Positions 27,071 to 54,789 of a DNA stretch of 64,000 bases are shown here, piece after piece. Numbering within the stretch: the stretch's first letter is position 1; every line of letters starts with the position of its first letter. The translations under genes were made by a program, and so were the position numbers. Origin of the DNA: Sphingobium sp. (GTDB lineage Bacteria; Pseudomonadota; Alphaproteobacteria; Sphingomonadales; Sphingomonadaceae); assembly GCA_020446425.1 (NCBI GenBank), contig JAGRES010000003.1:1-64000 (forward strand). The letters run 5' to 3'. The notes below the pieces were generated by a model, which searched no databases, was not told where the DNA came from, and was given only the letters and a program-made list of their open reading frames with translations.

Positions 27071-27095
27071 GGCCGCGCCTCCACCATACCCACAT

Positions 27096-27238
27096 CCGTT
27101 CGCTTCGAGCGCAGGTTCGAGCTTTGCCGAGAACCGAAGTCGAGAAGGCCGTTCTCGACAGCTATCTCGCCCTTCGACGCGGTTCCCGACAGGCTCGAAC
27201 CTTGCTCAGGATACTCGATAGCAGCTCGAACCGAACGG
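27096..27238 (-). repeat. 143-bp repeat with asymmetric terminal inverted repeats (ORF-less copy)
   Basis: The ends are CCGTTCGCTTCGAGC (27096-27110, the C-end) and GCTCGAACCGAACGG (27224-27238, reverse complement of the G-end). Internally GTCGAGAAGGCC (27139-27150) directly abuts GTTCTCGAC (27151-27159). The same blocks flank the GIY-YIG ORF in the 53.6-kb copy, in opposite orientation. It fills most of the glyQ-glyS gap and is transcribed with the operon. Confidence 0.75.
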
Positions 27239-27260
27239 GGTTTTTCAGAACCAAGCCCCA

Positions 27261-28151
27261 TCATTCCGCCCACCCGTTCGTCTGCATCCACGCTTCGCAG
27301 CTGCCCTTGGCAAGGTCGCGCACGCGGCCGATATAGCTGGCACGCTCTTGAACCGAAATCACACCTCTGGCCTGTAACAGGTTGAAAACATGGCTCGCCT
27401 TGATCGCCTGATCATAGGCCGCCAGCGAAACATTCGCCTCGATACAGGCCTTGCATTCGGCCTCGGCATCCTTGAACCAGCGGAACAGCTTTTCGGTATC
27501 GGCGATCTCGAAATTCCATTTCGACATCTGCTGCTCGTTGGCGAGGAACACATCGCCATAGCTTACCGCCGGACGATCGCCGACCGCGTCATTGAACCGC
27601 AGGTCATAAACGCTGTCGACGCCCTGAATATACATGGCGAGGCGCTCCAGCCCGTAGGTCAGCTCGCCCGCCACCGGCTTGCAATCGAACCCGCCCATCT
27701 GCTGGAAATAGGTGAACTGCGTCACCTCCATGCCATCGCACCAGACCTCCCAGCCCAGCCCCCAGGCACCCAGCGTCGGGCTTTCCCAGTCATCCTCGAC
27801 GAAACGGATATCGTGCAGCAGCGGATCAATGCCGATGGCCTCCAGCGAACCCAGATACAGCTCCTGCAGGTTTGGCGGGCTCGGCTTCATGATCACCTGA
27901 TACTGGTAATAATGCTGAAGCCGGTTCGGGTTTTCGCCATAGCGCCCGTCGGTCGGGCGGCGGCTGGGCTGCACATAGGCGCAATTCCACGGATTGGGGC
28001 CGAGGCTGCGCAGCGTCGTTGCCGGGTGAAATGTACCCGCGCCCACTTCCATGTCATAGGGTTGCAGGATGACGCAGCCCTGCTTCGCCCAATAGTCGTG
28101 CAGCGTCAGGATAAGATCCTGAAAGCTCAATGTGCCTTGCTGTTCGGCCAT
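27261..28151 (-). CDS. glyQ: Glycyl-tRNA synthetase alpha subunit
   Basis: 296 residues, the usual length. It is the catalytic alpha subunit that activates glycine with ATP. Near-invariant family sequence is visible at the start ([34 protein letters not shown], and [19 protein letters not shown]), covering the class II synthetase motifs. It is first in the operon glyQ-glyS-ppdK. The 190-base gap to glyS, unusually long for these paired genes, is explained by the inserted repeat. Confidence 0.97.
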
Positions 28152-53126: not shown

Positions 53127-53588
53127 ATGCGTTGCCCCTTCTGCGGACATGAAGATAGCCAGGTGAAGGATAGCCGCCCGACCGACGATGGCGCAGCTAT
53201 CCGCCGCCGCCGCCAGTGCGAGGCGTGCGCGGCGCGCTTCACGACGTTCGAGCGCATTCAGTTGCGCGATGTGTGGGTGACTAAGAGCGATGGCGAGCGC
53301 CAGCCCTTCGACCGCGACAAGCTGGCGCGTTCAGTTGATATCGCCTGCCGCAAACGTCCCATCGAACAGGCGAAGATCGAGAAGCTGGTCTCTGGCATAC
53401 AGCGGCAGATCGAAACCGGCGGTGACAGCGAAATCCCCTCGCGCGCTATTGGCGAACTGGTGATGGAAGCGCTCATGGCACTCGACAGCGTCGCCTATAT
53501 CCGCTTCGCCAGCGTCTATAAGGACTTCCGCGAGGCCAAGGATTTCGAGGACTTCGCCAGCACGGTGAAGGAAGTTGGGGGTGAATAA
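53127..53588 (+). CDS. nrdR: Transcriptional repressor NrdR
   Basis: 153 residues from ATG 53127; the longer reading overlaps the preceding gene. The zinc ribbon ([17 protein letters not shown], then CEACAARF) binds DNA, and the ATP-cone (about residues 49-139) senses ATP/dATP to control ribonucleotide reductase genes. The glyA-nrdR order is usual in alphaproteobacteria. No NrdR-box pair is visible in the window. Confidence 0.96.
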
Positions 53589-53606: not shown

Positions 53607-53991
53607 CCGTTCGGTTCGAGCACTGATCGAGCGTGTCGAGATCAGTGTCGAGAACGCATAGCGGCTTCATATGAGTTTCTGGGTCTATATCCTGCGCTGC
53701 GCTGACGGCACATATTATACTGGCCATACTGATAACCTCGAGAGGCGCATCGCCCAGCACCAGGCCGGTGAACTTCCGGGCTATACACATGATCGAAGGC
53801 CCGTTGAATTAATGTTTTCCGAGACGTTTGCGGAGCGCATTGATGCTCTGGAGCGAGAACGCCAGATCAAGGACTGGTCTCGCAAGAAGAAGGAGGCTTT
53901 GTTCGGCAATGATTTCGCAGCGGTAAAACGCGCGACCTCGGCTTCTCGACAGTCGTCTCGACTTCGCTCGACGACCGCTCGAAGCGAACGG
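53607..53991 (+). mobile_element. Putative 385-bp GIY-YIG-carrying repeat element
   Basis: The left G-end CCGTTCGGTTCGAGC (53607-53621) and right GCTCGAAGCGAACGG (53977-53991) form inverted terminal repeats. A hairpin ACTGATC/GATCAGT (53622-53645) is followed by GTCGAGAAC (53646-53654). The GIY-YIG coding sequence begins at 53671, and GGCTTCTCGAC (53940-53950) follows its domain. In the ORF-less copy at 27.1 kb, GTCGAGAAC and GGCCTTCTCGAC abut directly, so the nuclease ORF lies exactly between two element blocks. No target-site duplication is obvious. The mobility is inferred. Confidence 0.6.
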
Positions 53992-54789
53992 GGGGAGTTA
54001 AAAGAAAACCGTTCGGTTCGAGCATCTGCCGCAGTTTCGAGCTTGTCGAGAAGCAAGGAAGATGTCGAGAACAACCATTCCAAACCCATCATCGTCCTGG
54101 TCCGCCCGCAGCTCGGTGAAAATATCGGCAAGGCGGCACGTGCGATGCTCAATTTCGGACTTACCGAGCTGCGCCTCGTTTCTCCGCGCGACGGCTGGCC
54201 CAACCCGGATGCGGGCCCGGCAGCTGCGGGTGCAGACGTCGTGCTGGAACAAGCACAGGTTTATGATACGCTGGCCGAAGCCGTGGCAGATTGCGCGCAT
54301 GTCTACGCGACCACCGTGCGCAAGCGCGGCGTCACCAAGCCGGTCGTAACGCCCACACAGGCCGCACAAGAAATCCACCAAGCCCAAGGCCGCAGCGCCA
54401 TCGTCTTTGGCCCGGAGCGTTCGGGTCTCGAAACTGACGATGTCGCGCTCGCCCGTAAGATCCTCACCGTGCCGATCAACCCGGAATTCGCGTCGCTCAA
54501 TCTCGCCCAAGCGGTGATCCTGGTCGCTTATGAATGGTCCAAAGGCGCTGATGTCCAGTCACCCACGGAAGAGGAACTGCTGCCCCCCGCCCCGCAGGAC
54601 GAACTGGAAGGCATGATCAGCCAGTTCGAGGCACTATTGGAAAAATCCGGCTATTTCTTCCCGCCTGACCGCGCGCCCGCAACCAAGCGCACATTGCGCA
54701 ACCTGCTCACCAAACCGGGCTGGAACCATCTGGAAGTGCGCACGCTGCGCGGCATATTGTCATCGCTGGCCAATCCGCGACCGAAATGA
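53671..54789 (+). CDS. GIY-YIG nuclease fused in frame to TrmJ/SpoU-type RNA methyltransferase
   Basis: 372-residue continuous frame. Residues about 1-85 are a compact GIY-YIG endonuclease (WVYILRCADGTYYTGHTDN, with Arg in NLERRIAQH, then a Glu-rich helix). Residues about 90-134 are low-complexity Ser/Arg-rich sequence encoded by repeat DNA. Residues about 136-372 are a SPOUT methyltransferase resembling TrmJ-like tRNA/rRNA ribose methylases (VLVRPQLGENIGKAARAMLNF, GPERSGLETDD, and PINPEFASLNLAQA). Between the two domains there is no in-frame ATG; TTG 54043 could start the methyltransferase alone. The simplest reading is a repeat-made fusion, or a fused gene cleaved or re-initiated. The methyltransferase is probably the conserved ancestral gene. 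Confidence 0.8.
   Translation: MSFWVYILRCADGTYYTGHTDNLERRIAQHQAGELPGYTHDRRPVELMFSETFAERIDALERERQIKDWSRKKKEALFGNDFAAVKRATSASRQSSRLRSTTARSERGELKENRSVRASAAVSSLSRSKEDVENNHSKPIIVLVRPQLGENIGKAARAMLNFGLTELRLVSPRDGWPNPDAGPAAAGADVVLEQAQVYDTLAEAVADCAHVYATTVRKRGVTKPVVTPTQAAQEIHQAQGRSAIVFGPERSGLETDDVALARKILTVPINPEFASLNLAQAVILVAYEWSKGADVQSPTEEELLPPAPQDELEGMISQFEALLEKSGYFFPPDRAPATKRTLRNLLTKPGWNHLEVRTLRGILSSLANPRPK
54009..54072 (+). repeat. Half copy of the GIY-YIG-associated repeat, inside the fused gene
   Basis: Begins with the G-end CCGTTCGGTTCGAGC (54009-54023) and ends at GTCGAGAAC (54064-54072), 17 bases after the end of the full element. It lacks a matching C-end. It is translated as part of the linker and runs straight into the methyltransferase coding sequence. 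Confidence 0.6.

Follow-up and report, generated by a model that had tools for sequence, protein, structure and literature searches.

A small GIY-YIG nuclease gene within a dispersed palindromic repeat of Sphingobium, and the matching of repeat class to nuclease clade

The Element between nrdR and trmJ

We analyzed a 64,000-nucleotide stretch of a Sphingobium genome (GCA_020446425.1, contig JAGRES010000003.1, positions 1 to 64,000; hereafter the window) in which a palindromic element of 385 bp and class A1 (53607..53991, forward strand) encloses a gene for a small GIY-YIG nuclease. The element sits between nrdR (53127..53588, forward strand; an open reading frame [ORF] named by eye) and the core of trmJ, a SpoU-type RNA methyltransferase identified by profile match (54082..54789, forward strand). 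Related elements without an ORF are dispersed through the genome, and across the genus the class of the repeats flanking such nuclease genes tracks the nuclease clade and not the position. Judged from the sequences compared, nuclease and repeat form one unit.

The element begins with an exact 15-base end, the G-end (53607..53621, forward strand as are all parts except the last), which is half of a terminal stem. This is followed by hairpin 1 (53622..53646), whose stem varies among ORF-less copies with compensatory changes, and by GTCGAGAAC (53647..53655), the left half of a central hairpin stem. The nuclease domain of 89 amino acids (53671..53937) lies within the loop of this central hairpin, the right half of its stem being GGCTTCTCGAC (53940..53950); hairpin 3 (53951..53976) and the likewise exact C-end (53977..53991, reverse strand), second half of the terminal stem, complete the element. 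Downstream is a half element running from a G-end to GTCGAGAAC (54009..54072, forward strand), and an ORF-less element of 143 bp occupies the gap between glyQ and glyS (27096..27238, reverse strand). These three copies had been described by a model from the letters alone (the original prediction); their extents are as it gave them, its five 15-base ends are all exact (shuffled sequences gave a mean of 0.63 and a maximum of 3), and the GIY-YIG identity of the ORF is borne out by Pfam PF01541 (6.4e-18). The 143-bp copy resembles a copy of about 103 bp with a hairpin of about 40 bp nested in the loop of one of its hairpins (27170-27213; compare L006).

The window ORF has no stop codon of its own; its frame runs on across the right end and the half copy and enters trmJ, giving an open frame of 372 amino acids (53671-54789, forward strand) that matches both PF01541 and SpoU_methylase. 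Within the 30 codons before the TrmJ core, the only in-frame ATG, GTG, or TTG is a TTG inside the half copy.

The protein is a single-domain GIY-YIG nuclease in which Y6, Y16, R26, and E63 are invariant in 11 of 11 sequences, residues whose roles we take to be catalytic. Its nearest solved relatives by sequence are the UPF0213 structures 1zg2 (E 1.5e-20) and 1ywl (E 1e-16), whose depositors' names give no function. No specific NCBIfam family could be assigned to the ORF, the match to a homing-endonuclease group (12.3 of 56 bits) being far below the cut-off. The genome has two small GIY-YIG genes, one from each of two subfamilies (A and D), and a third match that we take to be UvrC. The second gene (C26; L032, 1430-1850) lies upstream of pheS, as read by eye, between CGTC-tagged repeats that differ from those of the window element.

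Copies in the Genome and Their Folding

Searching the whole genome with the 15-base ends gave 46 matches at one mismatch or fewer, many of them forming inverted pairs about 100 bp apart, while the reversed-pattern control gave none. From the 30 of these matches that became loci, and with two parsing artefacts (L018, 90 bp; L006, 205 bp) excluded, we extracted 17 canonical three-hairpin elements. Sixteen are ORF-less (93–143 bp) and one, the 385-bp copy, carries the ORF in its central hairpin loop, where the same spacer is 2–12 bp in the other 16. Using RNA parameters, 11 full ORF-less copies fold as a terminal stem enclosing three hairpins; compensatory changes among them (5 of 34 pairs) lie in hairpins 1 and 3, with almost no variation in the terminal or the central stem. 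It had been proposed that every full copy has one G-end and one C-end, which is true of both copies in the window and not of the population as a whole: a G-end is present in 16 of the 17 canonical copies, and the opposite end is a C-end in 6, a T-end in 6, and another sequence in 5. Two elements of 68-69 bp (L026, L027) belong to another class with CCGTTCGTGTCGAGC at one end, and no matching nuclease was found for them in the window's genome.

Matched Repeats and Nucleases across the Genus

Of the 61 genomes of the genus, 56 have a relative. Among the matches listed we sampled 111 small GIY-YIG copies, comprising 77 of subfamily A (76 from the listing, with the window copy contained in L034, made up to 77 by further matches), without short fragments and broken pieces (e.g., G008, G023, G049), and 34 of subfamily D (L032 and 33 weaker matches listed, taken mostly from the top down with some omitted). 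Matched inverted repeats flank 97 of the 111 genes at a score of at least 14, a threshold set after the scores were seen, compared with 1 of 111 in windows displaced 450 bp outward and none in shuffled sequences; at a score of 12 the corresponding numbers are 101, 6, and 0. The conditions named as refuting the original prediction, an absence of genome-wide pairing of the ends or nuclease genes of this family being just as common without them, were tested and did not hold.

Subfamily A genes are flanked by CCGTTC-tagged repeats of several classes and subfamily D genes by CGTC-tagged repeats. The pattern CCGTTC..GAACGG was found at 65 of 77 subfamily A loci and 0 of 34 subfamily D loci, with no occurrence in the displaced control of either. 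On the nuclease tree (106 of the 111 rows), seven repeat classes require 8 changes, against at least 59 when labels are shuffled, and at the nrdR–trmJ site alone 2 changes suffice against at least 9. The class-labelling rule behind these counts was revised and rerun after the first automatic labels had left most class C rows in disagreement with the tree, an inner hairpin resembling class B being part of class C; L039, L053, L075, L083, and L084 were dropped as unlabelled or discordant, and L104, at the A2 site, is labelled A1. One 2.4-Mb genome (G042) has no GIY-YIG match and serves as a natural control, with 0 A-type, 2 B-type, and 0 C-type ends.

Turnover and Empty Sites

We located trmJ in 60 of the 61 genomes. 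The nrdR–trmJ gap, compared at 47 loci in one set and 13 in another, holds a GIY-YIG gene in 33 of these genomes, namely 9 of class A1, 12 of Btrm, and 12 of C (the frame of G030 stops early). The other gaps comprise one truncated gene, two with element ends from which the gene is deleted, five that are longer and lack tags, and 19 of just 19–41 bp. In the A1 clade at this site, 7 of 9 loci have the left block ahead of the ORF and 9 of 9 have the right block behind it, small variants allowed, in support of the original prediction. The frame is open from GIY-YIG into TrmJ through translated repeat arms in 31 of the 33 occupied loci, including all three classes, and in most of them an in-frame ATG lies a short way upstream of the TrmJ core. 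A GIY-YIG/TrmJ fusion protein or translational coupling is possible.

Mapped on a tree of the two flanking genes, repeat class, assigned by hand at each occupied locus (L053 as C, L039 and L252 as A1), switches 17 times among the 33 occupied genomes, no fewer than in shuffles (mean 15.9, lowest 10), so that, within the weak resolution of the tree, class is not inherited with its neighborhood. A comparison that stands without the tree is provided by G016, G022, and G030, which hold three different cassettes: their flank windows are 88–100% identical (mostly 94–100%) and their cassette windows 38–83%. By pattern, five of the nine A1 alleles have a class C remnant on their right side. Genome G004 (L312, L058) has in a row a class C cassette, a partial second trmJ start, the right half of an A1 element from the central block onward, and trmJ. 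We read these remnants and this scar as traces of exchange. Three GIY-YIG cassettes (L255, L260, L267) are internally deleted or truncated with element sequence kept, indicating that ORF-less forms can arise by deletion.

Comparison of orthologous loci, suggested with the original prediction, gave clean empty sites in relatives for the ORF-bearing position and also for one ORF-less copy. In the two genomes closest by GlyS identity, G028 and G032, the glyQ–glyS gap measures 2 bp, versus 193 bp in the window's genome, and it is 2–8 bp in 17 of the 30 genomes examined (of 60). Other repeat classes occupy it in five of the 30 (L279, L284, L287, L294, L298). Relative to the empty G028 site, the insert (27072-27264) has about 23 and 25 extra bases past the element ends.

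Subfamily D and Loci beyond the Genus

Among loci from named records, a matched pair was found in 58 of 80 at a score of at least 14, against none in 75 displaced controls, the flanks of five loci being too short for one. The positive records are titled as Alpha-, Beta-, and Gammaproteobacteria, Thermodesulfobacteriota or Deltaproteobacteria, Candidatus Binatia, and Chloroflexi, many of them metagenome bins. No matched pair was found in named loci that include both from Herbaspirillum, both from Thiobacillus, Melioribacter, one of two from Novosphingobium, and several from Chloroflexi.

Within the genus sample, the pheS-side site holds a GIY-YIG gene in 18 of the 34 subfamily D loci. Across the class, a subfamily D match is present in 52 of 142 genomes. 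In 29 such loci, the window's own genome excluded, a CGTC-type hairpin (one stem mismatch allowed) lies within 220 bp in 19, compared with 1 of 29 control windows, and a clear inverted pair is present in 14, compared with 0 of 28. A 2013 survey characterizes the CGTC-type repetitive extragenic palindromes (CGTC-REPs), which include dRS3 of Neisseria (CGTC-1), by a CGTC-type tag, a stem of 8-9 bp starting with AT, and a short loop, and states that they are without a dedicated transposase (Di Nocera 2013, PMC3733652). Many subfamily D flanks share with this description the CGTC or TGTC tag, the AT-starting stem, and the short loop, and mostly have a CCA tail (PMC3733652).

A Probable Nuclease–Repeat Module and Its Alternatives

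We think it fairly probable that these observations reflect a nuclease–repeat module, in which a GIY-YIG enzyme recognizes its own class of repeat, its gene lies inside one repeat, ORF-less relatives spread, and modules are exchanged. The small nuclease would recognize one class of dispersed palindromic repeat, probably as hairpin-folded single strands. The ORF-less copies would be nonautonomous relatives that have spread into intergenic gaps, probably through cutting of the folded single strand by the nuclease and copying of the repeat by recombination or repair. The gene itself would be retained at a few home sites, here nrdR–trmJ, where the whole module may be swapped for a rival, most likely via recombination through the flanking genes. 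Of the earlier proposal of an autonomous element and its derivative, analogous to RAYT/REP systems, the REP/RAYT-like unit with a GIY-YIG enzyme, its many ORF-less copies, and the clean empty sites stand, while autonomous transposition of the ORF-bearing copy by its own enzyme stays hypothetical. We rejected a classical insertion sequence, given 0 target-site duplications of at least 3 bp among 21 elements and no transposase inside the element.

The number of repeats per genome bears on this module in both directions. Repeats are more numerous in genomes that carry the corresponding nuclease clade (A, p=2e-5; B, p=3e-7; C, p=4e-5), although these values overstate independence because the genomes are related and the clades were assigned by hand. 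The cross-pairings of C repeats with A1 and of B repeats with A1 are not significant. Several results weigh against the module. A repeats tested against the A1 clade alone give only p=0.037, B repeats are also more numerous where C nucleases occur (p=0.027), and some genomes that lack a listed subfamily A gene keep many repeats (e.g., 71 in G003). The association is incomplete, a clear inverted pair being missing in 14 of 111 genus loci, 22 of 80 named loci, and 15 of 29 subfamily D loci. In the copies examined the A1 ORF occurs once per genome at one site, a distribution explicable by descent plus allelic exchange. Among 21 elements (two of the entries being parsing artefacts and two belonging to another class), none shows a target-site duplication of at least 3 bp, and the genomes compared revealed no transposition event, the evidence consisting of sequences throughout. 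At glyQ–glyS, G059 (86% GlyS identity) has the same repeat class as the window's genome, making loss elsewhere possible instead of gain here. At nrdR–trmJ, the switch counts are inflated by weak resolution of the flanking-gene tree (18 of 57 inner branches open), and G016 and G030 reach 98% identity over the final 50 bp ahead of trmJ, where they share a class C remnant.

A broader version of the module can be advanced only tentatively. Small GIY-YIG nucleases may be the enzymes for CGTC-REPs and CCGTTC-tagged repeats in at least four phyla, playing a RAYT-like role by cutting folded single strands, with rival specificity cassettes replacing the resident module and its flanking repeats at fixed docking sites.

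Among the alternatives, a role in defense or self-marking seems somewhat unlikely. Here the repeats would mark the chromosome, and the nuclease would cut single-stranded DNA entering the cell according to the repeats in it and so influence natural transformation; cassette exchange would resemble the swapping of restriction specificities. The replacement of one specificity by another at a single site in near-identical backgrounds agrees with such a role, and the Ssn nuclease of Neisseria is said to modulate transformation; PADLOC, however, did not match the window protein and matched the second gene only weakly and in part (best 0.0031), and we rejected the assignment of either to a known defense system.

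We consider it unlikely that the nuclease is a homing-type parasite that cuts the intact central hairpin of ORF-less copies and is copied in during repair, the repeats not being spread by it. Such cutting and repair would account for an ORF always lying between the same blocks. The ORF does interrupt a central palindrome that is intact in the 16 ORF-less copies, and in the G004 scar the right half element that adjoins a class C cassette with a partial start of trmJ begins at the central block. The proportion of 16 ORF-less copies to one with the ORF argues against homing, as does the presence in the genome of two small GIY-YIG genes, one per subfamily.

Domestication appears distinctly improbable. 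The GIY-YIG domain would in this case serve the host as the N-terminal part of TrmJ, with the repeats as bystanders, as the open frame in three cassette classes might suggest; but repeat class agrees with nuclease clade, in 26 of 60 genomes trmJ has no GIY-YIG gene at this site, and the repeat association holds at other sites too. Chance flanking of small genes by common intergenic repeats, which reach 211 ends of three patterns in one genome, can be dismissed, as displaced and shuffled controls are near zero (1 of 111 and 0 of 75 displaced windows of the same loci) and class matches nuclease clade.

Comparison with Known Systems

The module resembles REPINs and their RAYT enzymes. The element, like REPINs, consists of paired inverted palindromes dispersed in many copies, and both systems have a single enzyme gene between palindromes that bear a fixed tag, numerous copies without the enzyme, and the gene in one or a few copies. 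The enzyme differs, the one in the element being a GIY-YIG nuclease and not a Y1 HUH tyrosine transposase (the genome was not searched for RAYTs), and so do the tags, which as read from the sequences are CCGTTC in subfamily A or of CGTC type in subfamily D, and not GTAG. With the GIY-YIG homing endonucleases of the I-TevI type the element shares a GIY-YIG gene interrupting a palindromic site, but it has no intron and no long second domain.

A further parallel makes doubtful the earlier remark that no described element of this form was known. The Ssn proteins, site-specific single-stranded DNA GIY-YIG nucleases with NTS repeats, were reportedly described by Chenal, Veyrier, and colleagues in Nat Commun in 2025. 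They are said to be small nucleases with hundreds of cognate repeat copies and thousands of homologues, each with its own sequence. The likeness to Ssn lies in a small single-domain GIY-YIG enzyme with the conserved Y, Y, R, and E residues and in a repeat class of its own, in many copies, matching the nuclease clade. The placing of the gene in the loop of the central hairpin, the empty sites of ORF-less copies, swapping at nrdR–trmJ, and read-through into TrmJ are not known to belong to the Ssn description, though some of them may be part of it.

Openly licensed papers in PubMed Central yielded none joining CGTC, REP, palindromic, and GIY-YIG, and no report of GIY-YIG genes with REPs, the broader searches being weak (best 20 of 288 and best 20 of 340). 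The enzyme, if any, that serves the CGTC-REPs, which are mainly alphaproteobacterial repeats, was left open by the 2013 survey (PMC3733652), and subfamily D provides a cloneable candidate. Small GIY-YIG nucleases may supply the enzyme partners that a large class of bacterial repeats has lacked. The close match of nuclease clade and repeat class makes the specificity of the cut site predictable from the flanks, and nrdR–trmJ, where three specificities alternate with one another and with an empty state, partly in nearly identical genomes, amounts to a natural experiment.
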